From the IMG/VR virus record IMGVR_UViG_3300001533_000797, positions 1 to 44,363 of that record: a DNA stretch of 44,363 nt. One strand, written 5' to 3'. This DNA is from a virus. Position 1 is the first letter of the stretch. Every line of letters starts with the position of its first letter. Positions 6,996-37,792 of the stretch are shown piece by piece. The position numbers and the translations under genes are program-made. The notes below the pieces were generated by a model that had not been told where the DNA came from, did no database searches, and saw nothing but the letters and a program-made list of their open reading frames with translations.

Positions 6996-7003
6996 GTCTG
7001 TCT

Positions 7004-7040: not shown

Positions 7041-7052
7041 GGGTTGCTTCTA

Positions 7053-8174: not shown

Positions 8175-8215
8175 TATAAATCTCCTTTAATAGTTCTATT
8201 TCTTAATTCCGATTA

Positions 8216-9304: not shown

Positions 9305-9324
9305 TGAATAAACCTTTCAGTTGT

Positions 9325-10233: not shown

Positions 10234-10244
10234 AGAACCGCACC

Positions 10245-10538: not shown

Positions 10539-10547
10539 TTCTGTCTC

Positions 10548-11128: not shown

Positions 11129-11130
11129 TT

Positions 11131-11496: not shown

Positions 11497-11726
11497 TATT
11501 TACCTCTCAGCCTTTTAATCTCTTCTTCTGTTAGACCCGCGTCTCTTAGTTTCTTTTCAACATCTGACGTTCGTTTGGTCTTAGCTTTCTTCTTTTTGGT
11601 CTCAGCTTTCTTCTTTTTAGCCTCGGCCCTTTTCAACTGTTCGTCGATGTACTCATCGGTGCTCTTGCGCTTCTTACTCTTTGCCGACATCTTAGCGGCG
11701 TTTCCGTATCCGATTCCCTCAGGCAT
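11496..11726 (-). CDS. Lys-rich coiled-coil protein (76 aa)
   Basis: It is highly basic. Residues of about 15-55 contain repeated Lys-rich helical units (AEAKKKKAETKKKKAKTK), and the C-terminal helix (LRDAGLTEEEIKRLRGK) resembles a short SHOCT-like tail. It overlaps the lipoprotein gene by eight bases at its start. The basic helix could bind DNA or the acidic scaffold. No homologue is recognised. Confidence 0.6.
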   Translation of the reverse strand: MPEGIGYGNAAKMSAKSKKRKSTDEYIDEQLKRAEAKKKKAETKKKKAKTKRTSDVEKKLRDAGLTEEEIKRLRGK

Positions 11727-12180
11727 CTGTCTCTTTTCCTTTCAGCACATCAATGAGTGCTTTACCCACTTTGTAAATATCTTCCTCTTTAAGACGATCA
11801 GTGACTTTGCTTTTTACCACATCGCCAACGGTAGTACCTTCCTCGTCAAGAACAACAGCCTCACTATCTTCTACCGCGTTTATAACGGCTTCCATGATAA
11901 CTACTGTCTGTTCATAAACATCGTCCTTCTTTACGATCTCCTGCTTCTTGCGCATGTTTGTGTATGCCCCGCCAAGAATGGTCAGAAGATTCGTAACAGC
12001 CAAAACGGGAAGAGCATAGGGACCACCCACTGCACCAGCCGCGTTTTCTACATCCTCTACAACTTGCATAGAACTGCCGGGACTTCCGTCTTCATTGGGG
12101 AGAAAGAAGTTATCCATGGCGGCACAGCCAGCAATCATAAGAATAGTTCCGGCAATAAGACCCAACAAATACTTTTTCAT
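11719..12180 (-). CDS. Phage lipoprotein (153 aa)
   Basis: The N-terminus is a classic lipoprotein signal: two lysines, a hydrophobic run, then the lipobox IAGC with Cys at residue 19 and Ala at +2. A second hydrophobic stretch (ALPVLAVTNLLTILGGAY) follows at about residues 55-75, and the rest is a charged helical domain. A lipid anchor in the outer or inner membrane is implied. It lies between the portal and scaffold genes, an odd place for a membrane protein. Outer-membrane spanin, superinfection exclusion, or a peptide shared with host lipoproteins are all possible. None can be chosen from the sequence. Confidence 0.7.
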   Translation of the reverse strand: MKKYLLGLIAGTILMIAGCAAMDNFFLPNEDGSPGSSMQVVEDVENAAGAVGGPYALPVLAVTNLLTILGGAYTNMRKKQEIVKKDDVYEQTVVIMEAVINAVEDSEAVVLDEEGTTVGDVVKSKVTDRLKEEDIYKVGKALIDVLKGKETDA

Positions 12181-12188
12181 GATGTCTC

Positions 12189-13934
12189 CTAGTTTACGGT
12201 GTTATCGGACTGCATTTTCTGTCTTGAATTAGCTGCAGCAGAGTCGGCATTGACTCCGGTTCTGCCATCAGCAACGTCTTTATTTTTAACCTTCCCTTGT
12301 GTTGGCTGGTACGGGTTCAACCTCGACTCCTGTGTTGGTACGGCGCTAGAGTACATCTCATCAAACTCTCTTATTCCTGACATCTTTGCTAGCTTATTAG
12401 CTACCGCAGGAACATTTAATTGATAGCCCTGCTGAGCAGCAATCTGTGCCGTCGGCAGTACCCACTGTGACATAAGAGCTAGTATTCTCTGGTACTCAAG
12501 CATCGGAGAAAGGCGTTGCATGGAGTAGGGCTCAACATCAAACTCATAATCCCAAAACTCTCCATCCCTCGCGGCACGATCAAACGTAACGGGGATATCT
12601 CCGAATCCCTCAATCCTTTTTATCTGCGGAACCGATATAAGGGGGTCGCTCCAGAAGTACCAGACCATCTTATGCGCAACACTCTTTGCAAAATCATACA
12701 CTGTCTCCGTCATATCATCTACACTTTTGGAGGCGTTGGCCATTAACATCTGCTCTTGCCCAAGTGTATCTGCCTGCGAGTTCCTTCCACCGAGGGTGTA
12801 AAGATTGTTACCTTGAAGAGAGTATTGACTTTCAAGATATTGAATCCAGTTGTATTGTTCTCTATCAACGCCGGGCCATTCAATAGGCTTCAGTCCATCA
12901 ACATTGGATACCTTGACGCTCTGCCTGTCGCCGCTTCCTGCCAGTCTTTCTGCATCATCGGCAGCGTCACCTTCGTAAGCAAGTACGATCTTCTGTGATT
13001 CGGCTTGCTTGCGCATCTTGTTTACTATGATATTCATAGCAGTATCAAGGTCTAGCCAGTACCATACGGGAGGAATCGGAACTGGGGTATTAGGAAAGTC
13101 TTTGAAGTAGAGTTTATCGTAGGGTCCGCCCTCAGGTGTATCCGCCTCAATCGTTCTAATTATCTTAGAAGACTGGGGCTCAATTGTCATAATCACATTC
13201 TCATCTGGAATCCAGAAGTCAGCAAGCTCAACGAATTCTTTCAGAGTAGTACTTACGTTGTCTAGTGTGGAACGATGCGCTATCTTTTCTGGGGACTCGT
13301 CTGAAGCATCACCATGCAGCGCATAGGAAGGATTAAGAAAGTCCGCGAACTTCGGATACAAGTCTCTTGCCGCCTCAAGGGGCATTCTATAGAAATTTCC
13401 CTCGAACTCAAAATCCTCAAAGCTAAGTGCCGAGGGGTCTCCAATATAATCAGTAACATCTACGCGGTCAGAATAAACTTGACCAATAGCGTGAAGATGT
13501 CCGTAGATTTCAACCTCGTGTGATTTTGTTATGCCCGTCTTCGATATACCAAGACCCATCATTGCGTCTTTAACTATTGGCCTAAGAGTCTTCTTTGCAA
13601 ATTTAATCTCTCGCATTAAATGATTGAATGCTAATTCAGTTGTTCTTGCAAAGGGCCTATACTCTGGCTTCTTTGTACTAATGAGAAGATAAGGGTTCGT
13701 CATTACAAGATAGGGAACTAAAATACTAAGACCCCTCTCTATTAAATTAACGGGGTGACTCTTATCTACAGTCGCGCGCTCAGAGTTAGAATCGTAGAAA
13801 CCTGACTGTAATGCATTAAGGATGAGTTGTCTATTTTTTAATGCGGGTTTTAACTTAGTCTGCCACTGTTTTGCTCCAGAGATCAATCTCTGGGGAAAAC
13901 TAAGTTTGACATTCTTCTCTTTAAGCTTTGACAT
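12189..13934 (-). CDS. Portal protein (581 aa)
   Basis: This protein follows TerL by eight bases and has the length and texture of a podovirus-type portal: a helical N-terminus with membrane-like loop (LIERGLSILVPYLVMTNPYLL), a central beta and helical wing, and a Gln/Pro-rich C-terminal tail. Segments such as QLNVPAVANKLAKMSG and LGQEQMLMANASKSVDDM are in the expected C-terminal helical part. The dodecameric portal would be the DNA entry channel and motor docking site. The start is ATG 13934 behind TAGGG. Gene order supports the call strongly. Confidence 0.85.
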   Translation of the reverse strand: MSKLKEKNVKLSFPQRLISGAKQWQTKLKPALKNRQLILNALQSGFYDSNSERATVDKSHPVNLIERGLSILVPYLVMTNPYLLISTKKPEYRPFARTTELAFNHLMREIKFAKKTLRPIVKDAMMGLGISKTGITKSHEVEIYGHLHAIGQVYSDRVDVTDYIGDPSALSFEDFEFEGNFYRMPLEAARDLYPKFADFLNPSYALHGDASDESPEKIAHRSTLDNVSTTLKEFVELADFWIPDENVIMTIEPQSSKIIRTIEADTPEGGPYDKLYFKDFPNTPVPIPPVWYWLDLDTAMNIIVNKMRKQAESQKIVLAYEGDAADDAERLAGSGDRQSVKVSNVDGLKPIEWPGVDREQYNWIQYLESQYSLQGNNLYTLGGRNSQADTLGQEQMLMANASKSVDDMTETVYDFAKSVAHKMVWYFWSDPLISVPQIKRIEGFGDIPVTFDRAARDGEFWDYEFDVEPYSMQRLSPMLEYQRILALMSQWVLPTAQIAAQQGYQLNVPAVANKLAKMSGIREFDEMYSSAVPTQESRLNPYQPTQGKVKNKDVADGRTGVNADSAAANSRQKMQSDNTVN

Positions 13935-13942
13935 AATTAACC

Positions 13943-15967
13943 CTAGTACCGAAATCTTCTGTTGCTTTTCTTGTTACTCTGTAGTTTTCTACTTTTCATT
14001 CTCGCATGAAGAGAGTGTTCAGAAGTCGCCGCTCGCTTTTCAATTAGTGCCTTTGGCTGGTACTTCATGGCAAGAACACAAAGACCAAGAGAGATAACAC
14101 GGTCGCCGTGTGAGGAAGCAGCACCACTATCATCATCCTCGGAAGTAGCAACAGGATGAGGAGTACCGGCGTTATTAAACATGTAACATTCAAGTTCCCT
14201 TACTACGTTAATATCGTGAATTACTACATATTTCTGTGTCGGTTTTTCTTCAAGCCCCTCTTTTAGCGCAATATCGAGGTTTACGCAAAGTTGATATTTA
14301 CTTCCCTCTGTACCTTTAGTACTTGTCCACCCCCTTTTGTTTTTCTTTTTTGCCCTTCTTGCTCTCTCGTCTCTTTGGATATACACGAAGGGGTAGTTAT
14401 TTTTTACGACCTCATTTTCAAACGGACCGCCCGGACCATTTGCTTCCCATATAAGATAGGGCTCTTTATCTTTTCCACCAATCCACTTACACAGGCCAAC
14501 AACTATTCTTGCGAACGCCTCGGGTGAAGTATTAGGGCAAATCCACTTACCTACTTCCTCCCCCGTATTAGTGTCTAGTATAGAGGCTACAGAGTTAGAT
14601 GCTCCCTTGCCTAAACTAATGTCACATCCAACGATATAGTTATGATCTTGATTAGGTCTTCCGGAGTTTAATACTCCCCACCAATTAAGTCTTCCTGCCC
14701 CTCCGGGATATACATTATAACTCTTAACTATGCCATCTTCGTCTACTTTTATATCTATCTCTCCCTTAAACTTAGGGGGAAATATAGTAGTCTTCTCAAT
14801 TCGGTGGAGAGTAGACGTAGCAAAGACGGATGCTCCAGAACCCCGTGGCCGTCTGTCTAAGTTACATGCTATATCTCTAGGACGTCTCTCCTCACATTCA
14901 TTATCGTACCACGGACTTCTCCACCCGCCTTCATTTGAATGTCCGCCGTCGGCGATGAACTTTATATCTTCAAGTTTATGAGCCCACGGAGCAGTTAGAT
15001 TCTCCTTTTCTAATCTGCTCACAACAATCCTTTGCATGGGCTTGATGTTATTGAATACTTCCGGACAAATATTTCGATAGTAATCAATATCAGAAATCTC
15101 AACAACATCATAATCGGGAGAGATGTACAGTCCTTTGTTCTTCTTAGGATTCCTGTCCCAAGGCATGACAGCTACTTGTATTCTTCCAAACTTCTGTGTA
15201 ATCAATTGATTGTATGGATGCTCAACTCCGTAAAAGTGTGTTGAATTAAAGATCACGCAGGGAGAAGTATCGTGGATAGAGTCGTTAATACTCAATGCCA
15301 TGTTATAGTCTATTCGTCCATACTCATCAATAAGCACTGCAGTCTGCCGGTCGCCAGCACCAAAGTTTTCATTTGTGGCCTCTCCAGAAATAACAGAACC
15401 ATTATTCAGATTTTGGAGAAGCATGTACGTTTTAACTATCTCAGGACGCATCCACATCGGAAGTGTGGTTATTGCGTAACAAATCTTGTGCATCAGAGAT
15501 TTGTGAAGACCTATAAGTTTTCCGTTTTCAATTATCTCTACGCCCTTGTCGACGTATTCCGCTTTTCTGGACCCTACTAGAAACTGGCTTTCCGGGTCAA
15601 GTACAAAGTGACCTGCGAATGACTTGCAGATAATTTCAGTAGCGCCCTCTTTACGGGACTTGTCGATTACTAAATCTTTTTCCGTCTTTATGCTGGCATG
15701 TATTGCATCTACTGCTTCTTCCTGATGTGGCCAAAGAATGAAAGGCTTGTTTCTAAGTCCGGCTTTGTCCTCAACATCATATACAAACATGCATGTATTA
15801 AACAGAATCTTCAGGTCCGCCCAACATAGCTGAAGAAAAGTCTTCTGCATTCCCTCATCACTCGCAAGGAGATTATGCAGCTTCATCCTGTATTCTAGGT
15901 TCTCGGTAACACTAGAGGGAATTGCCGCAAAAAAGTCTTCAGGAGTATTGAGGTCTTTAGTCTTCAA
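13943..15967 (-). CDS. terL: Terminase large subunit (674 aa)
   Basis: An ATPase domain carries a Walker A-like loop (DKSRKEGATE, residues of about 100-109) and Walker B (VLIDEYGR, about 210). The C-terminal nuclease domain has a RuvC-like acidic set: VGCDISLGKG (about 446), LIWEANG (about 504) and HGDRVISLG (about 624). It packages DNA into the prohead and cuts the concatemer. The most upstream in-frame start is TTG at 15967, overlapping TerS by 11 bases. No good ATG lies nearby, so a rare TTG start with coupling to TerS is likely. Confidence 0.93.
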   Translation of the reverse strand: MKTKDLNTPEDFFAAIPSSVTENLEYRMKLHNLLASDEGMQKTFLQLCWADLKILFNTCMFVYDVEDKAGLRNKPFILWPHQEEAVDAIHASIKTEKDLVIDKSRKEGATEIICKSFAGHFVLDPESQFLVGSRKAEYVDKGVEIIENGKLIGLHKSLMHKICYAITTLPMWMRPEIVKTYMLLQNLNNGSVISGEATNENFGAGDRQTAVLIDEYGRIDYNMALSINDSIHDTSPCVIFNSTHFYGVEHPYNQLITQKFGRIQVAVMPWDRNPKKNKGLYISPDYDVVEISDIDYYRNICPEVFNNIKPMQRIVVSRLEKENLTAPWAHKLEDIKFIADGGHSNEGGWRSPWYDNECEERRPRDIACNLDRRPRGSGASVFATSTLHRIEKTTIFPPKFKGEIDIKVDEDGIVKSYNVYPGGAGRLNWWGVLNSGRPNQDHNYIVGCDISLGKGASNSVASILDTNTGEEVGKWICPNTSPEAFARIVVGLCKWIGGKDKEPYLIWEANGPGGPFENEVVKNNYPFVYIQRDERARRAKKKNKRGWTSTKGTEGSKYQLCVNLDIALKEGLEEKPTQKYVVIHDINVVRELECYMFNNAGTPHPVATSEDDDSGAASSHGDRVISLGLCVLAMKYQPKALIEKRAATSEHSLHARMKSRKLQSNKKSNRRFRY

Positions 15968-21053: not shown

Positions 21054-21943
21054 TAGATCGTTGGTGACAGTTAAGCTGATTTTACCCCCGTTTTTGATAG
21101 CGTAAAGGCCGATTTTTTTGATCAAATTTCAGGATACGTACCATAGGTCCACTAGAAATATGCCCCTCTCAGAATCAATCCTAGAGCGTTCTACGCCAAG
21201 ACATGTTTTGTCCAGATATATACCGATAATCCGAAAATTTTATACACATAAAATTCCCGCACATTATGATTGAAAATCATAATTTCGAGAAAAATTATCC
21301 ATATATTTTCGAAGAGTCGAAAATTTACCGTAAGAGGATTTCGTCTTAATATACCATCCGGGACTTGAATATCGAAACCGGACGTACCTACACCCATCCG
21401 ATAATATACGGACGTGCGATTGAGATTATCCTTTATTATGGGCGCCTATTGAAGATCGTCTTACTCTCGTCCTATAACATGGGGGGCGTTCGGCGGGATT
21501 GACCCTTATTATCGACAGATAAATGGAGTCTTGATTTGTAATTCCGATAATAACCTATCGGCTGGCTGCGTCTATTCCTTACAATCGCTACAGACCTGCC
21601 GAACACGGGCCGAACAGACTTGCGATATTATAGGACTGTCGGCTGTCTGTCCGATAATATAACAGGACATTGTTACTCTGTGTCTTTTCCGTCAAAAGTA
21701 TTATCCCGCTATTTTCTTTATTCACGGGCTGGAAACCAATCCGGAATTGTTTTTCTTGTTTATCTATCCCTCTTTATGGGCGATAAACGGCGATTGAAAA
21801 AGGCTCATTCTGCTATATAGGCTAATACATTTTCGCAGGAAAATAAGGGGCGTCGGCAGGATATTGATTGACTTCGGGCAGTCTATCGGGTATACTCTTT
21901 TATGGCCTGTCGGCAAGCGGCTTTGACAAGTTAATAAAGAGGT
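21054..21943. other. Gene-poor stretch with dispersed GTCCGATAAT-type motifs
   Basis: No reading frame here has a ribosome binding site and plausible protein texture. The stretch contains a perfect inverted repeat ATTATGATT/AATCATAAT (21263-21283). It also holds many variants of a short motif: TCCGATAATATA (21397), GTCCTATAA (21469), TTATTATCGAC (21507), TCCGATAATAA (21543), ATATTATAGGAC (21625) and GTCCGATAATAT (21649). The last two face each other and form a 12-base near-perfect inverted pair. This looks like a regulatory or origin region. Confidence 0.6.
21868..21896 (+). promoter_or_regulatory. Sigma-70-type promoter
   Basis: TTGACT (21868-21873) and TATACT (21891-21896) are separated by exactly 17 bases. 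This is a near-consensus host-type promoter placed about 50 bases before the small gene cluster at 21949-22377. Confidence 0.75.
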
Positions 21944-21948
21944 ATGCT

Positions 21949-22020
21949 ATGGGGACTTGCGTTTGGATTGTTATCTGCATTTCGTTCGCTTTGTTTGTCA
22001 ATTCTATTCTACGGAGATAG
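21949..22020 (+). CDS. Small membrane peptide (23 aa)
   Basis: ATG 21949 lies six bases after AGAGG and behind the promoter at 21868. Almost the whole peptide (CVWIVICISFALFVNSIL) is one hydrophobic helix ending in two arginines. This fits a single-pass inner membrane peptide. An overlapping ATG at 21944 in another frame has its ribosome site only one base away and is less likely. The function is unknown; such peptides may be toxins, inhibitors or lysis helpers. Confidence 0.5.
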   Translation: MGTCVWIVICISFALFVNSILRR

Positions 22021-22024
22021 TACG

Positions 22025-22192
22025 GTGAATCGAAAGATAATGGTAAATGGTGAATTGGTTGTTGTCTTGTATCGTCCTACTAAACGGTATCTATCTCTAT
22101 CGGACGGGAATATATACGATAGAGACAGTGATACTGTGATTATGCGAGATACCTTGCATTTGATTATGGAAAAGGGTGAGACGGATGAGTAG
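22025..22192 (+). CDS. Small soluble protein (55 aa)
   Basis: GTG 22025 lies nine bases after GGAG. The protein is beta-rich and polar (GELVVVLYRPTKRYLSLSDG, DTVIMRDTLHLIMEKGE). It is the second gene of a four-gene cluster driven by a host-type promoter and closed by a strong terminator. No family is recognised. Confidence 0.5.
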   Translation: MNRKIMVNGELVVVLYRPTKRYLSLSDGNIYDRDSDTVIMRDTLHLIMEKGETDE

Positions 22193-22322
22193 AGAGGCCA
22201 AAGAATTCTATCGGCGTGAATACAATCGTATCAAAAGGCTTTTGCATACGTGCGCGCCTGCGGAAAAGGAAAGCTTGAAACGACTATTCAATTACTACTA
22301 CAGGCGGATGGATTATGAGTAA
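22185..22322 (+). CDS. Small basic helical protein (45 aa)
   Basis: It overlaps the previous gene by eight bases. The protein is Arg/Lys/Tyr-rich and helical (EFYRREYNRIKRLLH, LKRLFNYYYRRMDY), which suggests nucleic acid or membrane-surface binding. The function is unknown. Confidence 0.5.
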   Translation: MSREAKEFYRREYNRIKRLLHTCAPAEKESLKRLFNYYYRRMDYE

Positions 22323-22377
22323 AGACTGGAAAACATTGTTTTGGTTAACGGTTTGGGCATATATCGCATTATGCTAA
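22315..22377 (+). CDS. Small Trp-rich membrane peptide (20 aa)
   Basis: ATG 22315 overlaps the preceding gene by eight bases, with AGGCGG seven bases ahead. The peptide (MSKDWKTLFWLTVWAYIALC) is a short amphipathic or transmembrane helix with three tryptophans. It is the last gene before a rho-independent terminator. Confidence 0.4.
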   Translation: MSKDWKTLFWLTVWAYIALC

Positions 22378-22392
22378 TCTCTTTACCCTCTT

Positions 22393-22432
22393 GACTATCG
22401 GTTATTGACGTATAATCGGTAGTCATTTTTTT
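22393..22432 (+). terminator. Rho-independent terminator of the small cluster
   Basis: A 13-base-pair stem (GACTATCGGTTAT paired with ATAATCGGTAGTC, two G-U pairs) closes a six-base loop and is followed by ATTTTTTTA. This is a strong terminator about 15 bases after the last small gene, so the cluster is an independent transcription unit. Confidence 0.85.
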
Positions 22433-22763
22433 ATGTCTATGGTTTATTATTATAGGACCATACGCTAGGTGTTTTTGCCGCCGTTTCGGCGGATTATAAC
22501 GATTATATCGGACGTAAAACAAGCCTATTTTACGGGATTTTACCTCTTATTGTCGGACGATGTTGATCAGGATTTTGTTCGATATTATCGGACTGGGGTC
22601 TATTTCGCTTCACGTTCGATTTTAAGCCGTTTTATTTTCGTGCGGTCTATGATACCCGTTTTCCTTTTTAACGCAACACAAGCGATTCTAGGCGCTTTTA
22701 GAAAGCTTGCCGATTATCGCTATTGCCACAACCAGCCCCGAAATTATTATCGGACCTTGGGGG
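22433..22763. other. Non-coding stretch with five motif copies
   Basis: A long plus-strand reading frame crosses this stretch, but it runs through a terminator and an opposing gene and has no ribosome site, so I do not accept it. The stretch contains TTATTATAGGAC (22447), ATTATATCGGAC (22502), TTATTGTCGGAC (22547), ATATTATCGGAC (22582) and ATTATTATCGGAC (22743), all in the same orientation. It also has a GCCGCCGTTTCGGCGG palindrome (22478-22493). Confidence 0.55.
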
Positions 22764-22794
22764 TCAAAAAAATAGGGCGGGTTTTATCCCGCCC
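22764..22794 (-). terminator. Rho-independent terminator of the 61-aa gene
   Basis: On the minus strand GGGCGGG-ATAAAA-CCCGCCC is followed by TATTTTTTTG. The 20-base hairpin is identical to the one ending the early operon at 38027-38046. It closes the minus-strand gene at 22804-22989. Confidence 0.9.
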
Positions 22795-22803
22795 CAAACC
22801 GAT

Positions 22804-22989
22804 TCACGCGCTAGCGATATACGCGTTAACGCCCAAGATAAGGTTTTGCCCGTCAATCACGATTGACGTCCGGACGTTGCCGCGCGTTGACGCGACTACT
22901 TTACTTTTTCCGCTCGCCGATTTTGCCGGATTCTTTGTTTCGGCATCCAAAGTAATAACCAACTTGCCATTTTTCAATTCTGTAGTCAT
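22804..22989 (-). CDS. Small protein of unknown function (61 aa)
   Basis: A convincing stand-alone gene on the strand opposite to its early neighbours: AGGGGT lies six bases before ATG 22989, and a strong terminator follows. The protein has an N-terminal strand pair (LKNGKLVITLDAE), a Ser/Lys-rich middle (ASGKSKVVASTRGN) and a final strand (IVIDGQNLILGVNAYI). I recall similar short, uncharacterised phage proteins with the KxxVVASTRGN segment, but no function. A DNA-binding or regulatory role would suit its position among the repeated motifs; that is inference. Confidence 0.75.
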   Translation of the reverse strand: MTTELKNGKLVITLDAETKNPAKSASGKSKVVASTRGNVRTSIVIDGQNLILGVNAYIASA

Positions 22990-23041
22990 GGTAAACCCCT
23001 AAAAAGATAATAAAACATTAAAACGCGTGCTTGTGTCCGCC

Positions 23042-23158
23042 CTAGTACTCGAAAGGAAATTCAACGTTATCCGACTCCATCGGGCATGGCAATTCCGTTT
23101 CGGTACACTCCATTTCTTCCGCATCCCAAAAAGGACAGTTTTCACACTTCTTTTCCAC
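23042..23158 (-). CDS. Small acidic Cys-rich protein (38 aa)
   Basis: GTG 23158 lies seven bases after GGGAGG, the best ribosome site of the region. The short product has four cysteines (CENCPFWDAEEMEC, then LPC) and an acidic C-terminus. It may bind zinc or iron-sulphur. It is transcribed toward the 61-aa gene and lies behind two sites of the CGAACA family. A TTGACA-17-TATAGT pair overlaps its start and could add a promoter for the downstream gene. Confidence 0.55.
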   Translation of the reverse strand: MEKKCENCPFWDAEEMECTETELPCPMESDNVEFPFEY

Positions 23159-23202
23159 TATACTACCTCCCGATTAAATTGTCAAATAGCCTGCTTCTAC
23201 GG

Positions 23203-23231
23203 TCTTTACGCCGCGGCGTTCTGTGTGTTCG
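23203..23231 (-). promoter_or_regulatory. Promoter-like site P5 (CGAACA-N15-CGTA family)
   Basis: On the minus strand CGAACA (23231-23226) is followed after exactly 15 bases by CGTA (23210-23207) and TAAAGA. It lies 45 bases before the GTG of the Cys-rich small gene. Confidence 0.55.
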
Positions 23232-23264
23232 GCGAAAATTTTTTCTTTCGTCCGAACGCCATAA

Positions 23265-23293
23265 GTAATACGGGCTTGCCTTTACTGTGTTCG
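23265..23293 (-). promoter_or_regulatory. Promoter-like site P6 (CGAACA-N15-CGTA family)
   Basis: On the minus strand CGAACA (23293-23288) is followed after exactly 15 bases by CGTA (23272-23269), giving TATTAC as a -10-like hexamer. It lies 62 bases upstream of P5 in the same direction. Confidence 0.5.
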
Positions 23294-23298
23294 GCCAT

Positions 23299-24070
23299 TT
23301 TCAGGAAATTCTTTTTAATTATCGCCCATCCGAAATCTCATTTATTTATTATAGGACGTACGGGGTTTGGTCTGATAATATCGAAAATAAGTCGTGGCCG
23401 TTTGTGAGGATTGTATCGACTGCTTTTGGTCCCATAATAATACTGGGCTAACGTCCGATATTTCTGATCTCGCGTGCGCGCGTGCCTGTGGAGTCATACC
23501 GTAAGCGGATTAGTCGATGCATAAGCTGATTAGTTGGGAGTTGTTCTACCGTAAGCAGATTACGCAGGAAGAATTCAGCCGGGCACTTATGAAGTATAAG
23601 CCCCTACATGGCTCATTCCGTATTCACCATGCGAGACTTATTTGTAGTGATAATCAACTTTCGGCTTCCTGCCTCACTCGGCCAATCTCTTGTAGTCATC
23701 CTGACGATTTTTGACCCGCTCGCATCCCTGCTCGCTATCGCTGCTTCTGTATTTACCAACATAACTCGGCATAACTCGTTCTGGAAACTAAATTCCAAAT
23801 ATCCACATAAGCAAATAGCCAATAATAATCTGGATTTTGGCCTAAAAACGAAGATAAAAAACTTTTGCTAAAATTGAAAAAACATCGGTACAAACAATTC
23901 TTGATTAGTTTTGCATCCAGAATGTTAGAAGAATGGTGGAGCGAAGCGGCCGATAAAAATTGCGATTTTGGCGAAATAAAAAATTTTCAAAAAACTTTCG
24001 AACAAAAAAAATTTTCGCCCGTATGATAGGCGAAAGCGAAAATAAAATCCGCCGTCCTTTGGAGATCAAA
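23299..24070. other. Gene-poor stretch, AT-rich on its right side
   Basis: It contains three further motif copies (TTATTATAGGAC at 23346, GTCTGATAATAT at 23370, GTCCCATAATAAT at 23429). It also has an imperfect direct repeat ACCGTAAGC(G/A)GATTA (23499 and 23550). A reading frame at 23517-23714 begins in a protein-like way but lacks a ribosome site and degenerates. It may be a gene remnant. From 23870 the sequence is poly-A/T rich and leads into promoter P2. Confidence 0.5.
23999..24030 (+). promoter_or_regulatory. Early promoter P2 (CGAACA-N15-CGTA family)
   Basis: CGAACA (23999-24004) is followed after 15 bases by CGTA (24020) and TATGAT as -10, with a poly-A/T tract upstream. It lies about 45 bases before the first gene of the second early block (24071). 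After the -10 it shares CGAAAGC(G/A)AAAAT with P3. Confidence 0.7.
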
Positions 24071-24951: not shown

Positions 24952-25140
24952 ATGAAGTACTGTATAGAGCATTTGGATTCTGTGTATTTAACGTTGAATT
25001 GTGCTTATCATTGCTGTCCGCGGTACGTATTAACAATTCGACAGAACGGTCAACTTTTTCGGGAGCCGGGAATTGATCAACCAGTCCCCCTTCCCCTAGA
25101 GCGGAACGGAATAATAAAAGAAGACGAGAATTTGGAGTAA
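24952..25140 (+). CDS. Small paralogue 1 of tandem family (62 aa)
   Basis: ATG 24952 lies seven bases after GGAG. The product begins MKYCIEHLDSVYLTL and ends NGIIKEDENLE. It shares with the next three genes a start of the form MxYxI, a central strand and a G-[RK]-I-x-E-D-like acidic end. It carries four cysteines, unlike its neighbours. The family is not known to me. The cluster sits directly before a zinc-ribbon amidoligase and a glutamine amidotransferase, so these may be its substrates or partners. Confidence 0.6.
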   Translation: MKYCIEHLDSVYLTLNCAYHCCPRYVLTIRQNGQLFREPGIDQPVPLPLERNGIIKEDENLE

Positions 25141-25145
25141 GACAA

Positions 25146-25331
25146 ATGAAATACATGATAAAGTTGAGCCCACCAGGAGGAATCAAAATTAGAACGAAGG
25201 AGGATAATGAGTGTCGGTGGGAACTGGTGACTGTTAAAGAAAAGATTTACAGATGGAGTGGGATAAGAGCGAGCTTTATTCCTCATGACACCTCCGGGAG
25301 GATAATAGAAGACTATGATCTATTCGATTGA
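25146..25331 (+). CDS. Small paralogue 2 of tandem family (61 aa)
   Basis: ATG 25146 follows GGAG by about nine bases. The product begins MKYMIKLSPPGGIKI, has WELVTV in the middle and ends SGRIIEDYDLFD, matching the pattern of its neighbours. It overlaps the next gene by 17 bases. The function is unknown. Confidence 0.6.
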   Translation: MKYMIKLSPPGGIKIRTKEDNECRWELVTVKEKIYRWSGIRASFIPHDTSGRIIEDYDLFD

Positions 25332-25500
25332 ACAAAATGATTCGTACTCCTTAGATATTATAGCATCTCAGGACTTCTCTGAAAACTACTTGCCTCTACT
25401 TGCGGAAGGTAGAATAAGCAGAGACAATTATGTATCTAGGGAGTGGGGAATAGAACTTGATTGTCCTTCTGGAAGAATAAAGGAAGATTATGAGATATAA
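25315..25500 (+). CDS. Small paralogue 3 of tandem family (61 aa)
   Basis: The product begins MIYSIEQNDSYSLDI and ends CPSGRIKEDYEI, very like the end of paralogue 2. It overlaps both neighbours by 11-17 bases, so the run is translated as a coupled unit. The function is unknown. Confidence 0.6.
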   Translation: MIYSIEQNDSYSLDIIASQDFSENYLPLLAEGRISRDNYVSREWGIELDCPSGRIKEDYEI

Positions 25501-25672
25501 AATAGAGAAATCTAGTTCATTCGGGGATACGATATTTTTTGATGTCGAGTTTACAGTGGAGGGAATGGTGTGGCTTCTTGCAATTAGAAACGGAAAGATA
25601 CACAAAGAGGGACTGCCAAATGATGCACACTTTAAGGTAGACAATTTCTACAGACTGCTGGAAGAAAATTAA
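25490..25672 (+). CDS. Small paralogue 4 of tandem family (60 aa)
   Basis: ATG 25490 follows AAGGAAG inside the previous gene. The product begins MRYKIEKSSSFGDTI, has WLLAIRNGKIHKEG in the middle and ends YRLLEEN. It is more diverged than paralogues 1-3 at the C-terminus. It is the last gene before promoter P3. Confidence 0.6.
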   Translation: MRYKIEKSSSFGDTIFFDVEFTVEGMVWLLAIRNGKIHKEGLPNDAHFKVDNFYRLLEEN

Positions 25673-25681
25673 ATTTTTTTT

Positions 25682-25712
25682 CGAACAAATTTTTTTTTAA
25701 TTCGTAGTGTAA
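25682..25712 (+). promoter_or_regulatory. Early promoter P3 (CGAACA-N15-CGTA family)
   Basis: CGAACA (25682-25687) is flanked by T-runs and followed after 15 bases by CGTA (25703) and TAGTGT. It stands in a 73-base gap before the gene at 25746. The downstream sequence ACGAAAGCAAAAT matches P2. Confidence 0.65.
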
Positions 25713-25745
25713 ACGAAAGCAAAATTTTTAATTTAAGGGGAAATA

Positions 25746-26042
25746 ATGGATAACTTAGAAGAAAGACGGGCGGAGTGGACTCGGGAAGGAATGGCATTCC
25801 TCACAGACGAGGACCTGAAAGGGATTGACAACAGGCCATTTAACGGTCCTGTTGCATTGAGATTCGATCTGGTTAAGATTGAACAGCCAGCACCCGGAGT
25901 AATTCTCACTGCGGCGGACTCATTTGGAATTACATGGAGACTTCTACGAATAACAACACGCGGACTGTATCGGTATAAGTATCTTAGCTCACAACTTGGC
26001 TTCGTTCTTGATTCCCTAGGCAGAATTGAATTGGAGAACTAA
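25746..26042 (+). CDS. Early protein with C-terminal copy of the small family (98 aa)
   Basis: AAGGGGAAATA precedes ATG 25746. The N-terminal third is a charged helix (NLEERRAEWTREGMAFLTDEDLKG). The last 62 or so residues (RFDLVKIEQ, WRLLRITTRGLYRYK, LDSLGRIELEN) repeat the pattern of the four small proteins before it. It looks like a fifth family member with an added N-terminal helix. It is transcribed with the amidoligase, whose ATG lies one base after its stop. Confidence 0.65.
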   Translation: MDNLEERRAEWTREGMAFLTDEDLKGIDNRPFNGPVALRFDLVKIEQPAPGVILTAADSFGITWRLLRITTRGLYRYKYLSSQLGFVLDSLGRIELEN

Positions 26043-26043
26043 A

Positions 26044-27315
26044 ATGACTTGTGATTTCTGTGGAAAAGATGTTGAATCTCTGGTGGAAGTTGGAAACATG
26101 GAAGTATGTGAAGAGTGCAGCAGTTCCACGAGAGAATGCTTTAACTGTAATGTCGACTTTCCGGCGGACGCATTAGAGTACATTGGAGACGGAAGATACG
26201 TTTGCAGTGAGTGTAAAGAAGACTATGAAGAATGTGGAGATTGCGGACGTGTGGAACACCGTCACAATATGTGCGCGGCCCGAGGAAGTTACTACTGTGA
26301 GGGCTGTTTTGGCGACCGATTCTTTCATTGTTCTGATTGCGGGACCCTCATTGACAGTAGGAATGACAACTACGGGGAAAACAACGATGGAGATATCTTG
26401 TGTGATGAGTGCCTATACCGCGACGATTCTGAGGGAGTCCATGAGTGGGACTACAAACCACGGGCAGAATACCACACGCTTACCAAGAAGAAGCCGGATG
26501 ATCTCTTCTTAGGCATCGAACTTGAGACGGAGTTCGGACCGGACTGTGCCCGTGGCGAAATAATCGATGTGGCTTCCAGCAATTCGTATTATTACCTCAA
26601 ACACGATGGTTCTCTGGAAGACGGCGTGGAAATTGTATCTCACCCGGCGACATTCGAGTGGATAACATACAACTTCGACTCGACGTGGAAGAAGATACTG
26701 AATCTTCGGTCGGAAGGACTTCTTAGCTACACGCCAGGGACTTGCGGGATTCACGTTCACATGTCAAGATCAGCGTTCTCTCCATACCATCTGTACAAGT
26801 TTCAGAAGTTCTTCTATTGCAATAAGAAGCTCATCAGGCTTGTCGCCCAGAGAGACCTGAGAAGGTGGGCATCCATTGGTGGCGGTGAAGAGAATTACAT
26901 CGTAGCGAAAGCCTCTGGTAAAACCACGTCTGAGAAGTATACCGCAGTTAATATAAACGGCGGCAAGACGGTGGAAATCAGAATCTTTACCGGAACATTA
27001 AAGGAAAGTTCCTTCAAAAAGAACTATGAGTTCTGCCATGCTGCTTACATGTACACAAAGCAGGAGTCTGCGGCCATGCTTACTGGGGCCAGATTCCTTG
27101 AGTTTGTAAGGGCCAATAAGAAGACGTATCCGAATCTTCTTGAGTTTATGGAGAATAAATTCTCTGAGGACAAGCACGAACCGAACACAATAAAAGAAGT
27201 TAAGTATTCAATACTGTCGGACCCCTCGTTCTTCTGTCCTTCGGGTGCTCCTGATCGGTGGGTGATTACAACGGGAGTATCGGAAATTGACATGAACACA
27301 CCAGTATCTGTTTAA
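26044..27315 (+). CDS. Amidoligase with N-terminal zinc ribbons (423 aa)
   Basis: The start is ATG 26044, seven bases after GGAG. Residues 1-130 contain at least six Cys pairs (CDFC, CEEC, CFNC, CSEC, CGDC, CEGC, CSDC, CDEC), like LIM or treble-clef modules. Residues of about 155-330 carry the motifs of the amidoligase family (glutamine-synthetase-like fold): GIELETEFG (about 157), DGSLEDGVEIVSHPA (about 187), CGIHVHMS (about 234) and VEIRIFTGT (about 310). These enzymes join an amine to a carboxylate with ATP. Its neighbour is a class II glutamine amidotransferase, which in known associations of this family would supply ammonia. The target is unknown; zinc ribbons may hold a protein or nucleic acid. 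Confidence 0.85.
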   Translation: MTCDFCGKDVESLVEVGNMEVCEECSSSTRECFNCNVDFPADALEYIGDGRYVCSECKEDYEECGDCGRVEHRHNMCAARGSYYCEGCFGDRFFHCSDCGTLIDSRNDNYGENNDGDILCDECLYRDDSEGVHEWDYKPRAEYHTLTKKKPDDLFLGIELETEFGPDCARGEIIDVASSNSYYYLKHDGSLEDGVEIVSHPATFEWITYNFDSTWKKILNLRSEGLLSYTPGTCGIHVHMSRSAFSPYHLYKFQKFFYCNKKLIRLVAQRDLRRWASIGGGEENYIVAKASGKTTSEKYTAVNINGGKTVEIRIFTGTLKESSFKKNYEFCHAAYMYTKQESAAMLTGARFLEFVRANKKTYPNLLEFMENKFSEDKHEPNTIKEVKYSILSDPSFFCPSGAPDRWVITTGVSEIDMNTPVSV

Positions 27316-27324
27316 GGAACAACT

Positions 27325-28200
27325 ATGTGCGTGATTATTTACAAGCCTAAAGGCGTTGCAATAAAGAAGTCGTATCTAAAGAACTGTTTTAATAACAACC
27401 CCGACGGATGTGGGTATGCGTTTCCAGTGGACGGAAAATTTACCCTGAGTAAAGGATTCTTCAGCTTCAATACATTCTGGGAAAAGTACTACGAAGATTT
27501 CAGTCTTAATAGAAAAAGTCCATTTGTTATCCACTTCAGGATAGCCACTTCAGGAAATGTGGATGCACATAATTGCCACCCGTTCCAGATAGACGAAGAA
27601 GTGGTGTTTGCACACAACGGGATATTCTATGACTTGAATGGTATTGACCCCCACTTCTCAGACACAATACTTTTCAGGAACACATATCTCAAGACCCTTC
27701 CTAGTGGATGGATGTACAATAAATCCATTAGAGCCCTGATCACTAGAATCGCAAAGGATAATGACAGCAAGCTCGTATTCATGAACGACAAAGGAAACAA
27801 ATGGATTGTCGGCGAGGACTCCGGCTGCTGGAATAAGGGATGCTGGTACTCCAACAGTTCGTTCAGGGGGTCACATTCGTTTGGGTTCTCCGCATCAGAG
27901 TATACAGACGAGGAACTGGACAAAGTAAACCATACTGGTGGATGGAACTACAATACGGACGACCCCCCGACTGCTCAGTATGAATCATGGAAGAAATCCT
28001 ACTATTTGTCAAAGACAGAGACGTGTATATACTGTGGAATAGATCATTACAAGAAAGACATGTACTTCATGCAAGGAACAGGGTATATCTGCGAAAGATG
28101 TTCTGACTACCCCGAGTTTAGAAACACGGCATTGATTCCACCGGATTCTATGATTGGAAAGTCTACAAAGTTGCTGATGGGAGGTACAGACAATGAATAA
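27325..28200 (+). CDS. Class II glutamine amidotransferase-like protein (291 aa)
   Basis: The N-terminus is MCVIIY with the catalytic Cys at position 2 after Met removal, as in N-terminal-nucleophile amidotransferases. HFRIATSGNVDAHNCHPF (about 70-87) and FAHNGIF (about 94-100) are the class II substrate-binding motifs. The C-terminus has a zinc-ribbon pair (CIYCG about 232, CERCS about 255). It follows the amidoligase by nine bases and probably cleaves glutamine to feed ammonia to it, or reverses its product. Length and motifs fit a catalytically competent enzyme. Confidence 0.85.
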   Translation: MCVIIYKPKGVAIKKSYLKNCFNNNPDGCGYAFPVDGKFTLSKGFFSFNTFWEKYYEDFSLNRKSPFVIHFRIATSGNVDAHNCHPFQIDEEVVFAHNGIFYDLNGIDPHFSDTILFRNTYLKTLPSGWMYNKSIRALITRIAKDNDSKLVFMNDKGNKWIVGEDSGCWNKGCWYSNSSFRGSHSFGFSASEYTDEELDKVNHTGGWNYNTDDPPTAQYESWKKSYYLSKTETCIYCGIDHYKKDMYFMQGTGYICERCSDYPEFRNTALIPPDSMIGKSTKLLMGGTDNE

Positions 28201-28348
28201 GTGCAGAGTTGTAGTAACAAAACAATGTAACTTATCTTGTCCCTTCTGTTGCATGGAAGATGAAGACATGGTTAATACCTTCCTTCCCCGCGGATACGAG
28301 GACGGATTCTCTGATGGATTTGATGAAGGAGATATGTGTAGTATGTAA
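28193..28348 (+). CDS. Mini-protein with radical-SAM-type CX3CX2C motif (51 aa)
   Basis: ATG 28193 lies eight bases after GGGAGG and overlaps the previous stop. The product begins MNKCRVVVTKQCNLSCPFCC, which is exactly the start of a radical SAM enzyme, including the CX3CX2C iron-sulphur motif. There is no barrel: an acidic tail (YEDGFSDGFDEGDM) ends the protein at 51 aa. It could be a truncated gene, or a small iron-sulphur or zinc peptide that imitates the motif. Its ribosome site and intact short frame suggest it is expressed. Confidence 0.6.
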   Translation: MNKCRVVVTKQCNLSCPFCCMEDEDMVNTFLPRGYEDGFSDGFDEGDMCSM

Positions 28349-28378: not shown

Positions 28379-28407
28379 CGAACAAATTATTTTTGGGAGC
28401 GTAGTAA
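28379..28407 (+). promoter_or_regulatory. Promoter-like site P4 (CGAACA-N15-CGTA family)
   Basis: CGAACA (28379-28384) is followed after 15 bases by CGTA (28400) and TAGTAA. Here the -10-like hexamer overlaps the ATG of the next gene, so it may serve downstream genes or be a regulator site rather than the promoter of that gene. Confidence 0.5.
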
Positions 28408-32395: not shown

Positions 32396-33186
32396 TGTTA
32401 AGAGTACAGAAGCTGAAGATTCTGTGTCCCGTTTGTGAGAAACCCGATGGTTGTCTGGTTTCGGAAGATGGAGCGGCATGCATCTGCTCAAGAATAGAAC
32501 AGGGCTCGGTTAAAAAGGTTGGAACAGGACCGTTTTATGGTGGTTGGCTACATATACTTGGTGACTTCAAACCTAAAAAGTATACCGAACCACCTAAGCC
32601 TGATATCAACTGGAACTTATTGGCTGTGAAGCACGGGAGACAGTTGATGGAGCATGCCCATGAGTTCGCCGAGTTCTGTCAATCAAAGAGAATCAATCCG
32701 ATTGCCGCCCTGCGGTTCTTTGTGGGGTGGGATGAGGATTGGATAACGATACCCATCTACGGAAGTGATGGAAAGATATCAGGAATCCAGAGAAGACGAG
32801 GGGTGTTCAAGAGATTCCTTGAGCACTCCTCCGCTGGGGTATTTGTTCCGTCTGCTTTCTTCCAGTACAAGTGTAAGACTCTTGCTATCTGCGAAGGATG
32901 GACCGATACAGTCACGGCTATACAGTACGGATTCAATGCAGTAGGCAAACTAAATTCTCATGTAGGCAATGAGCAATTAAAATACTTCATTGAGCGTATT
33001 GGCTGTGAAAGAATCGTTATCTTTGCCGATAACAACGAAAATAACGTAGGCATAGAGGGAGCAGAGTCGACTAAAGAATATCTGTCATACTTAAACATGC
33101 CGATAAAAATAATACTCACTCCTGAAAAGGACTTGAAGGACTGCTATACAAAAGGAATGTCACTTAGAGATATATTTGGAGTGTAA
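32395..33186 (+). CDS. DNA primase with zinc ribbon and TOPRIM domain (263 aa)
   Basis: Its zinc ribbon (CPVC at 11-14, CLVSEDGAACICS about 20-32) is followed by a TOPRIM fold with CEGWTDTVTAIQYGF (about 165-179, catalytic Glu) and IVIFADNNENNVG (about 208-220, Asp pair region reading DNN). This is a short primase that partners with the helicase just upstream. In this phage helicase and primase are separate genes. The usual DxD of TOPRIM is replaced by DNN, which fits several phage primases but should be noted. Confidence 0.88.
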   Translation: MLRVQKLKILCPVCEKPDGCLVSEDGAACICSRIEQGSVKKVGTGPFYGGWLHILGDFKPKKYTEPPKPDINWNLLAVKHGRQLMEHAHEFAEFCQSKRINPIAALRFFVGWDEDWITIPIYGSDGKISGIQRRRGVFKRFLEHSSAGVFVPSAFFQYKCKTLAICEGWTDTVTAIQYGFNAVGKLNSHVGNEQLKYFIERIGCERIVIFADNNENNVGIEGAESTKEYLSYLNMPIKIILTPEKDLKDCYTKGMSLRDIFGV

Positions 33187-33187
33187 T

Positions 33188-33790
33188 ATGAAGTATCTTC
33201 TTATTGGATTATTGAGTGTTGTTCTTAGTGTGTCTGCTTTTGCTGATAAGTTTATGTCCGATAACATCGTGCAGATTATCCGAGAGGACGAGGGCAGAGG
33301 CACGGGATTTATGTACGACGATGGAAAGATTCTTACTGCCCGCCATGTGATTGCAGACTGCAATGCTGTTGTTGTTATCTACACAGACAAGAAAGAAGAG
33401 TACTCCACTAGGCTTATCCTTGACCCACGTGCAGACTTGGGGCTGATTAGTGTTCGCAGGAAATGTGAGCAGAAGCCCACCATCTCTTACGAGACCCCGG
33501 CTATCGGTACTACAATCTACATTCATGGATACCCCTATGCATTTGAAGTCTTGAGGCTGACTCGTGGTATTGTTTCCTCGACTACTATCCACAGTAGGGC
33601 AGAAATAAACAGGGACCATGGCTGGGAGTACTTCTTCCTCGTGGACGCCATCTTCGCCGCAGGAAATTCTGGAAGCCCAGTGTTCGACGACAATCTAAAT
33701 GTAGTCGGAGTGGCGGTCGGCAGATACGACAATGTGTTTCTCTGCGTGTCCGCAAATAAACTTGCAGACTTTGTAAGGAGATTGCAATGA
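33188..33790 (+). CDS. Secreted trypsin-like serine protease (200 aa)
   Basis: ATG 33188 lies six bases after GGAG. Residues 1-19 form a signal peptide with an AFA cleavage site. The catalytic triad of chymotrypsin-fold proteases is visible: His53 in TARHVIAD, Asp83 in RADLGLI and Ser161 in AGNSGSPV. The layout resembles HtrA/trypsin-2-type proteases without a PDZ domain. It would act in the periplasm or outside the cell. Its gene sits in the replication operon between primase and NinG, so it is an early product. The substrate is unknown; envelope proteins or host defence factors are plausible. Confidence 0.85.
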   Translation: MKYLLIGLLSVVLSVSAFADKFMSDNIVQIIREDEGRGTGFMYDDGKILTARHVIADCNAVVVIYTDKKEEYSTRLILDPRADLGLISVRRKCEQKPTISYETPAIGTTIYIHGYPYAFEVLRLTRGIVSSTTIHSRAEINRDHGWEYFFLVDAIFAAGNSGSPVFDDNLNVVGVAVGRYDNVFLCVSANKLADFVRRLQ

Positions 33791-35936: not shown

Positions 35937-36626
35937 ATGAGAGTATTAGTTATTGGAGACATTCACGAGCCGGTTGCTCATCCAGGCTACCTTCCCTTTT
36001 GTTCTGATCTATATGATCAGTGGGATTGTGACCACGTGGTATTCATCGGGGACTTGGCAGACAATCACGCCATTAGTTTCCATGCAAAGAATCCACAATG
36101 TCCGGGACCATCGGACGAGTATGAGTTGACATGGCAGTGCATACAGGAATGGAATAAGGTATTTCCTGTAGCAGATGTTTGTATTGGAAATCACGATGAT
36201 CTTATTCTTAGACAGGCGGAGACTATAAGCCTGCCGTCGAAGTATCTTAGGAACTTCAAAGAGATTTGGGATACTCCTGATTGGGAGTGGGAGTATGAGT
36301 TTATGATAGACGATGCTATCTATTTTCACGGCACAGGACGCAGTGGAATACATCCAGCATGGAATGCCCTCCCGAAGAAGATGAAGTCTGTAGTGATGGG
36401 CCACTGTCATAGCCGAAGTGGGGTTAAGTGGAAAGCAACAAGACACGAGAGGTACTTCGCAATGGATACCGGGTGCGGGATTGACGTAGAAGCATTTCAA
36501 TTCGCATACGGAAAGCACATCGACGAGAGACCTATTCTCTCTGCAGGTGTTGTGATTGACGGTGTCCCGTTTGTAGAGCCCATGCCTATGGGGTCTAAAG
36601 AAAAGTATCACAGATCGAGGTTTTGA
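35937..36626 (+). CDS. Calcineurin-like metallophosphoesterase (229 aa)
   Basis: Metal-site motifs are all present: GDIHE (residues 7-11), GDLADNH (about 38-44), GNHDD (about 82-86), HGTGRSG (about 130) and MGHCHSR (about 157-163). The family hydrolyses phosphate esters in nucleic acids, nucleotides or proteins. GGGAG precedes ATG 35937. Its own control region and its neighbour, an RNA ligase, make nucleic-acid end repair a plausible role: removal of a phosphate followed by ligation. Confidence 0.85.
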   Translation: MRVLVIGDIHEPVAHPGYLPFCSDLYDQWDCDHVVFIGDLADNHAISFHAKNPQCPGPSDEYELTWQCIQEWNKVFPVADVCIGNHDDLILRQAETISLPSKYLRNFKEIWDTPDWEWEYEFMIDDAIYFHGTGRSGIHPAWNALPKKMKSVVMGHCHSRSGVKWKATRHERYFAMDTGCGIDVEAFQFAYGKHIDERPILSAGVVIDGVPFVEPMPMGSKEKYHRSRF

Positions 36627-36635: not shown

Positions 36636-36830
36636 ATGTTGGCTAATGAGTTGGAAATAGGAAAGAAGTATACTCGAAAGACCGTAGACGGAATCCCTAA
36701 GAGGTTCCCATTCAATCAAGAGCATGCTACATTCACGGGGTATACCTCGTCTGGATGGCCGTGCTTTAAGTTAGATGGGCCTAAGTATGCTACGATCAAT
36801 GCACTAGGTTATGAATATGAGGAAGTATAA
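36636..36830 (+). CDS. Small early protein (64 aa)
   Basis: The start follows TGAGGT. The product is a compact beta-type protein (YTRKTVDGIPKRFPFNQEHA, GYTSSGWPCFKLDG) resembling short phage SH3-like folds. It lies between the phosphoesterase and the RNA ligase, sharing its last base with the ligase start. The function is unknown. Confidence 0.6.
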   Translation: MLANELEIGKKYTRKTVDGIPKRFPFNQEHATFTGYTSSGWPCFKLDGPKYATINALGYEYEEV

Positions 36831-37792
36831 TGATATCGTCTTACTCAAAAATACATCAGGCAGGCCACCGTGAGACGGAGGGAATGAAGGGCCAGCTGGT
36901 ACAGATAGAGGAGAAGATCGATGGCTCGCAGTTCTCCTTTATGTATGATGGGGAGAAGGTGCACTTCAGATCGAAGAACCAGCAAATATACCCGGACAAT
37001 CCACCGAAGTTGTTTGCTAAGGCAGTTGAATACATAAAAGAAAACACGAGGGACTTGTGTGTAAATAGAGTGTATCGTGGGGAGTGTGTTACGTCCAACA
37101 AGCACAATACTCTAGAGTATGCTAGGTGTCCGAAGGGCTACGTTGTTATCTTTGATCTTGAGAAGTCTGATGGTTCCTGTGACTACGGCAATGACCTTAT
37201 CAGGGCATACACTTGCTCGTATCTATTTGATGTAGTGCCAGTACTCTGGCGGGGCAAGTACGAAGACGTGACGTCTGAGTTGATAGAGGAACTTCTTGAT
37301 ACTGAATCAATCCTCGGGGGCACTAAGATTGAAGGTGTGGTAATCAAGTGCTATGACAAGTTTGATTCCAAAGACAAGGTTCTCATGTGCAAGTACGTGT
37401 CCGATAGATTCAAGGAAAAACATCGGGGCAATAAGTTTAATCCTGCCCGGTCGGATATTCTATCTGCGATTGGCAGTCAGCTAAGGACGGAGGCTAGGTG
37501 GGAAAAGGCCATACAACACCTTAGGGAAGAGGGCAAGCTTACAGAAACTCCAATGGATATTGGAAACCTTATCAGGGAAATACATGAGGATGTTCTTGAG
37601 GAAGAGGCAGATTGGATTAAGGACAAACTACTTGACCACTTCTGGAAGAATATCATACGTGAAGTACAGAGGGGATTGTCGATGGAAGGGCATAGTCTAT
37701 ATACGTTAGTAACCGAAGCTCTTAATAGGCAGTTTAGACACGTGATATGTCCTCTGTGTTCTGCGGAGTTGGGTCATTTTATCTGGACGTAG
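36830..37792 (+). CDS. RNA ligase, T4 Rnl2-like (320 aa)
   Basis: The nucleotidyltransferase motifs are visible: EEKIDGSQF with catalytic Lys29 (motif I), VYRGECVTS (motif III-like, about 84), EGVVIKCYD (motif IV, about 168) and CKYVSDRFKE (motif V, about 187). The C-terminal domain is helical and ends in ICPLCSAELGHFIW before a TAG. The second half of an apparent zinc ribbon lies in the -1 frame just beyond. It seals nicks or breaks in RNA, which would undo host RNA-cleaving defences. Confidence 0.85.
   Translation: MISSYSKIHQAGHRETEGMKGQLVQIEEKIDGSQFSFMYDGEKVHFRSKNQQIYPDNPPKLFAKAVEYIKENTRDLCVNRVYRGECVTSNKHNTLEYARCPKGYVVIFDLEKSDGSCDYGNDLIRAYTCSYLFDVVPVLWRGKYEDVTSELIEELLDTESILGGTKIEGVVIKCYDKFDSKDKVLMCKYVSDRFKEKHRGNKFNPARSDILSAIGSQLRTEARWEKAIQHLREEGKLTETPMDIGNLIREIHEDVLEEEADWIKDKLLDHFWKNIIREVQRGLSMEGHSLYTLVTEALNRQFRHVICPLCSAELGHFIWT

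Follow-up and report, generated by a model that had tools for sequence, protein, structure and literature searches.

A phage amidoligase–amidotransferase gene pair and the small proteins beside it: a probable two-subunit enzyme with an envelope peptide as likeliest substrate

Which carboxylate would be amidated by the amidoligase and glutamine amidotransferase of this phage, and are the small proteins encoded directly upstream their target? Here, the window is the whole stretch of viral DNA that was analysed (44,363 nucleotides); the features discussed are collected in Table 1. The initial annotation suggested a possible peptide-modification cassette in which tandem small proteins with acidic ends could be modified by the enzyme pair. 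All of the ORFs that it named are present, including four closely spaced ones of about 60 aa. In our reading, the pair probably constitutes a two-subunit glutamine-dependent amidoligase for which an envelope peptide is the likeliest substrate, and the small proteins would be a phage-specific expansion of neighbouring genes, not the substrate.

Table 1. Positions in the window of the enzyme genes, the neighbouring small ORFs and the promoter-like elements.
Feature	Coordinates	Strand	Basis
Promoter-like element, third copy, upstream of the small-protein unit	23999..24023	+	Exact copy
Small protein A, 62 aa, paralogue of B and C	24952..25140	+	Leave-one-out rank 1/593
Small protein B, 61 aa, tail SGRIIEDYDLFD	25146..25331	+	Leave-one-out rank 1/593
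Small protein C, 61 aa, tail SGRIKEDYEI	25315..25500	+	Leave-one-out rank 1/593
Small protein D, 60 aa, marginal family member	25490..25672	+	Leave-one-out rank 3/593, E 0.98
Promoter-like element CGAACAAA-N13-CGTA, before the enzyme-bearing unit	25682..25706	+	Exact copy
Small protein E, 98 aa, immediately before the amidoligase	25746..26042	+	Leave-one-out rank 45/593, E 27
Amidoligase_2 (PF12224)	26044..27315	+	Zinc ribbons at about residues 1-130; glutamine-synthetase-like ligase domain at about 147-385
Class II (Ntn) glutamine amidotransferase, the glutaminase partner, with a C-terminal zinc ribbon	27325..28200	+	PF13230, alignment
51-aa ORF, CX3CX2C and GX3 repeat	28193..28348	+	ORF list, Pfam, PHROG
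Promoter-like element, second copy, behind the 51-aa ORF and before the next genes	28379..28403	+	Exact copy

The first enzyme was annotated as a zinc-ribbon amidoligase, and this is confirmed by a match to PF12224 well above the curated cut-off (E 2.8e-8, 34.4 bits against 22), by a further match in PHROG and by the conserved cysteines of its N-terminal zinc ribbons, which are arranged in pairs. In alignments with 44-48 relatives, to which the window pair is about 25-33% identical, all of the invariant residues are kept (G157, E159, E161, D188, G194, E196, H237, H239, R270, N303, E311 and R313), so that the acidic, histidine and arginine active-site positions of Amidoligase_2 are all present. 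The AlphaFold model (pLDDT 83) has a glutamine-synthetase-like fold. For instance, it resembles YbdK (Z 12.6 over 216 residues), plant glutamate-cysteine ligase (Z 11.3) and glutamine synthetases (Z about 11), and the Pup ligase PafA and Dop are also among its Foldseek matches. A sequence search of the PDB returned only zinc-binding domains and the like, with no sequence likeness to ligases of this fold.

The second enzyme was taken for a class II amidotransferase, which is likewise upheld: it scores 26.4 bits against PF13230 (curated cut-off 23) and carries the glutaminase residues. Its sequence starts with MCVIIYK, placing the catalytic cysteine right behind the initiator methionine. This residue is invariant in the same alignments, as are N25, G28, H70, R72, H97, N98, G99, D113 and T114, among which R72, N98-G99 and D113 bind glutamine. 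The C-terminal zinc-ribbon cysteines (C234, C237, C256 and C259) are kept in at least 90% of the aligned relatives, and GlmS and PurF are among the PDB matches. Loss of active-site residues, named beforehand as grounds for rejection, was looked for in both alignments, and the catalytic positions are all kept.

In the mechanism that these families suggest, the N-terminal cysteine of the amidotransferase would free ammonia from glutamine, and the ammonia would be transferred between the subunits. The glutamine-synthetase-like amidoligase would then activate a carboxylate with ATP and join it to the ammonia, yielding an amide. Zinc ribbons are present in both subunits and probably serve either in their association or in substrate binding.

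The two genes have the same orientation and lie 9 nt apart in the window. Of 76 distinct viral loci, 75 have the two genes side by side, a count that includes the window and 8 amidotransferases located by a six-frame profile search; the amidotransferase gene lies behind the amidoligase gene, mostly overlapping it or at most 35 nt away. In bacteria, the two are neighbours in 77 of 80 loci, and the remaining 3 end too soon to tell, which makes 77 of 77 where there is enough sequence. Thus, the pair is a near-obligate two-gene unit, tighter than had been guessed, and one that has already been described in phages. The same two families occur in the pairs noted by Iyer and colleagues (2009), in Mycobacterium phage Marvin (gp105/gp106, with the same gene order, orientation and adjacency) and in OM43 phages (MEP401/402). 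The window differs from these known pairs by small neighbour genes that are unique to its phage. The right-hand 24 kb has no nucleotide match in phage records, and the DNA polymerase and terminase of this phage have distant matches only, so that there is no close relative for a comparison of synteny. No structural RNA or tRNA genes were found.

Phage cassettes with both enzymes have been interpreted as serving peptidoglycan modification (PMC5498523, PMC10580990, PMC3890496). In podoviruses of the RIO-1, phiEco32 and LUZ24 type, the 'peptidoglycan modification cassette' includes the amidoligase and the amidotransferase among early genes, and adds a second ligase, an ATP-grasp enzyme and a gamma-glutamyl cyclotransferase (PMC5498523, PMC3890496). 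None of these three additional enzymes was recognized among the window proteins that were scanned, which comprise part of the ORFs and in which divergent copies could escape. By analogy with the proposal published for phages such as phiEco32, the substrate of the window pair may be a carboxylate of a cell-envelope peptide, a more tentative step than the coupled reaction itself. Pairs of this type have been noted in phages for more than 15 years, and the cited phage literature, whose proposals underlie the envelope step, still gives no demonstrated substrate for any of them. MurT-GatD likewise combines a ligase with a glutaminase partner for amidating a carboxylate, in peptidoglycan. This is a likeness in working, with no homology claimed; MurT resembles Mur ligases (PMC3267633) and not glutamine synthetase. 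YbdK, glutamine synthetase and glutamate-cysteine ligase share the fold (Z 10-12.6), as PafA-Dop do by the Foldseek list, and from all of these the window amidoligase differs in having additional zinc ribbons and in relying on a glutaminase that is a subunit of its own.

The small proteins were described as four paralogues plus a fifth that is fused to a helix. Their kinship was assessed with leave-one-out HMMs, by rank within the window (593 ORFs) and within the whole set of loci (22,075 ORFs). A, B and C each rank first in both sets and, by this profile evidence, are true paralogues. D is a marginal member of the family, and E fails the test and is not retained as the fused fifth. The genes are densely packed: A and B are 5 nt apart, B and C overlap by 17 nt and C and D by 11 nt. 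The acidic ends annotated as GRIxED are found as an exact motif in B and C, but not in A (NGIIKED), D (YRLLEEN) or E (GRIELEN). The distance from the GRI codons to the following start varies, and GRI is written in different synonymous codons; because of this, the shared tail looks like a feature of the proteins, and its explanation as a mere ribosome-binding-site effect was rejected. In B and C, the 'Y-D/E' behind the motif is in part a consequence of the overlapping ATG. An AlphaFold prediction with the five sequences was unusable (pLDDT 50, pTM 0.28).

Small genes and enzyme genes do not form a single tight cassette. Between D and E lies an intergenic gap of 73 nt that holds a promoter-like element, and this element occurs in three exact copies in the window, compared with 0.01 expected. 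Because it recurs exactly, once between D and E, A-D are predicted to belong to a different transcription unit from the enzymes. Downstream, the start of the 51-aa ORF overlaps the end of the amidotransferase gene by 8 nt. The CX3CX2C noted in this peptide is present, as CNLSCPFC, but the radical-SAM-like label does not hold up: the matches lack significance (E 0.051 in Pfam, 0.032 in PHROG) and cover only the cluster loop (residues 6-29 in Pfam), and no TIM-barrel domain follows the motif. No homologues of this ORF were found in IMG/VR or phage records.

It is very improbable that the pair has the tandem small proteins as its substrates and amidates their acidic tails, in a pathway to which the 51-aa peptide might also belong. 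This reading is suggested by the adjacency of the genes to the enzymes and by the G[RI]IxED-type tail common to the three paralogues. Nevertheless, relatives of the small proteins were found neither in IMG/VR or phage records nor among the 22,075 ORFs of about 150-170 loci with the enzyme pair, so that the pair recurs in other loci and the small proteins do not recur beside it. For a RiPP pathway, precursors conserved beside the enzymes would be expected, and for a Pup-type system a fixed C-terminal Glu or Gln, whereas the five proteins end in E, D, I, N and N. The promoter-like element also sets four of the five small genes apart from the enzymes, although a separate unit would still be compatible with an enzyme-substrate relation. 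In a related phage (L005; amidotransferase 35-41% identical), the pair is likewise flanked directly on both sides by tandem small ORFs that have a C-terminal tail in common. There, however, the tail is basic, the array extends over 5.3-15.4 kb with some stretches 4-6 kb from the enzymes, and the RR codons of the tail also spell an AGGAGG-like ribosome-binding site ahead of the next, overlapping start. L005 stands out in a tail-similarity test from which homologous pairs were excluded, and no shared-tail array was found in the other viral or bacterial loci; the window, being redundant, was not in this set and was compared separately. It is hardly to be expected that such small proteins, with acidic tails here and basic ones in L005, make up a viral family whose tails are amidated in trans by the adjacent two-subunit amidoligase. 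The small-protein row is probably an expansion peculiar to this phage, encoded in the predicted transcription unit ahead of that of the enzymes, a neighbour and not a target of the pair.

Two further readings leave the small proteins aside. There is some chance, albeit a low one, that the pair serves mobile elements in counter-defence and amidates or otherwise disarms a component or signal of host defence: it is carried by phages, some bacterial copies lie beside ArdC-type anti-restriction or integrase genes, and one locus (L126) has a DUF2786 neighbour, but chance puts many phage genes near such genes. Somewhat less likely is the synthesis of a small metabolite or modified nucleotide for the phage, in place of a modified envelope or protein. 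The original family description by Iyer and colleagues in 2009 reportedly proposes new metabolites alongside peptide modification, but no nucleotide-modifying neighbours were seen in the window. By the counts given above, the enzyme genes are almost never apart in viruses or bacteria, and no accessory family of small proteins accompanies them across lineages; consequently, the host cell is the place to look for the substrate, and not the phage neighbours. Of 75 viral loci, 27 have a transglycosylase-like secreted protein nearby, which was considered as support for a peptidoglycan role and set aside, as it was not recognized by Pfam. The array of L005 is the one place where the idea of a small-protein substrate stays worth a quick test; a RimK-like ATP-grasp gene is also present in that phage.

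The amidoligase and class II glutamine amidotransferase genes form a two-gene unit, for which a third conserved partner is not needed. The amidotransferase gene lies directly 3′ of the amidoligase gene in 75 of 76 distinct viral loci (the window included, counted once); 67 of these pairs came from the first gene calls, with most genes overlapping or at most 35 nt apart, and eight more were recovered by a six-frame profile search. Among the 76, only Clostridioides phage AR1086-1 (L008) has no amidotransferase beside its amidoligase. In bacterial genomes, the two genes adjoin in 77 of 80 loci, and in the other three the sequence ends less than 200 bases from the amidoligase. Many Nocardia loci (L095-L103 and others) carry an amidotransferase on both sides (GATase-amidoligase-GATase). 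Some bacterial pairs lie near other genes, such as an ArdC-like anti-restriction gene in Actinokineospora (L105) and a DUF2786 gene in Allokutzneria (L126). In addition, a small secreted transglycosylase-looking protein (LWxxESxWxxxAxN...AGGIPQ), unrecognised by Pfam, is found within about 2.3 kb of the pair in L012, L014, L043 and 24 other viral loci.

Features of the window
Feature	Position	Strand	Remark
Promoter-like element	23999	+	before the unit holding the small genes
Small proteins A, B, C, D	24952-25140, 25146-25331, 25315-25500, 25490-25672	+	about 60 aa each
Promoter-like element	25682	+	between D and E
Small protein E	25746-26042	+	98 aa
Amidoligase_2	26044-27315	+	match above curated cut-off
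Class II glutamine amidotransferase	27325-28200	+	family match
51-aa ORF	28193-28348	+	contains CNLSCPFCC
Promoter-like element	28379	+	after the 51-aa ORF
Trypsin-like protease	33176-33787		PF13365, E 1.6e-21; among phage replication genes
Calcineurin-like phosphoesterase	35937-36626		neighbour of the RNA ligase family gene
RNA ligase family protein	36830-37792		PHROG 548, E 2.9e-28

Loss of active-site residues, named in the initial annotation as evidence against its reading, is not seen. In an alignment of 44-48 relatives, the window amidoligase has all invariant positions, including G157, E159, E161, D188, E196, H237, H239, R270, N303, E311 and R313, and the cysteine pairs of its N-terminal ribbons. 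Its AlphaFold model (pLDDT 83, pTM 0.64) resembles, over residues 147-385, YbdK (Z 12.6), glutamate-cysteine ligase (11.3) and glutamine synthetases (about 11), with PafA and Dop also among the Foldseek matches. The amidotransferase retains C2, R72, N98-G99 and D113 when aligned with its relatives, residues with known roles in GlmS and PurF, and keeps a C-terminal four-cysteine ribbon. This divergent phage carries a glutamine-dependent amidoligase of an already familiar type.

Such pairs and their likely roles are already in the literature. As quoted in PMC10580990, cell-wall modification against superinfection has been proposed for the phiEco32 pair and a role in secondary metabolites for that of Marvin, and RIO-1/LUZ24-type podoviruses have a peptidoglycan-modification cassette with such enzymes (PMC5498523, PMC3890496). 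Our first choice of substrate, held tentatively, is a cell-envelope peptide. A counter-defence role is unlikely, and action on a metabolite slightly more so. The further step to a peptide-modification cassette, with the tandem small proteins as substrates, finds no support in the comparison across loci, and we regard these proteins as very improbable substrates: no relative of theirs was found in viral or phage collections, nor in any locus carrying the enzyme pair.

A small probability remains for them owing to a parallel in phage L005 (IMGVR_UViG_3300025009_000218), whose amidotransferase is close to that of the window (35-41% identity). There, tandem small ORFs flank the pair on both sides and have a common basic C-terminal tail, L-K-[VI]-[KR]-R-x-L, which widens to L-[KR]-[VI]-[KR]-R-x-[LIMY] over all 16 members of the array; among viral loci a marked excess of shared tails is seen only in L005, and no bacterial locus has one. 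Nevertheless, some stretches of this 16-member array (contig 5340-15386) lie 4-6 kb from the enzymes, and the tail's two arginine codons also supply the ribosome-binding site for the overlapping gene that follows. Because L-K-[VI] is written in varied synonymous codons, this segment is also conserved as protein. Overall, the tails look more like a general feature of L005 early genes than enzyme substrates.

The initial annotation described the small proteins as four paralogues plus a fifth fused to a helix. Pairwise alignments against shuffles gave z up to 4.7. In a stricter leave-one-out profile test, A, B and C each ranked first, both among the 593 window ORFs and among the 22,075 from all loci taken together. 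In the window, D ranked third (E 0.98) and the 98-aa protein E 45th. Therefore, sequence comparison soundly groups A-C as paralogues and makes D a likely fourth, while the fused fifth is unsupported. The 51-aa ORF, whose start overlaps the 3′ end of the amidotransferase gene, had been called radical-SAM-like, a name that is unwarranted because its match falls short of significance, the motif is not followed by a barrel and a search gave no homologue.

A 25-base element, CGAACAAA-N13-CGTA, has exactly three copies in the window (0.01 expected), all on the + strand and 5′ of successive + strand gene groups; a one-mismatch copy is at 17202. Its CGAACA is spaced 17 bases from a TA-rich hexamer (TATGAT, TAGTGT or TAGTAA), which appears promoter-like, and the element is a candidate phage promoter family. 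If so, the enzymes would belong to a unit that starts separately from that of small genes A-D.

The 44,363-base window is probably a complete phage genome, since an exact 96-bp direct repeat occupies its ends (1-96 and 44268-44363); the repeat could instead reflect circular assembly. A nucleotide search of the phage collection with the right-hand 24 kb gave no near relative, and the matches of the DNA polymerase and terminase to other phages are only distant. About 3 kb (21060-24050) has few plausible genes on either strand and recurring motifs (TCCGATAATA, TATTATCGGA and TATTATAGGAC), as well as five copies of CCGATAATA against one in the remaining 41 kb, and is possibly a replication or regulatory region.
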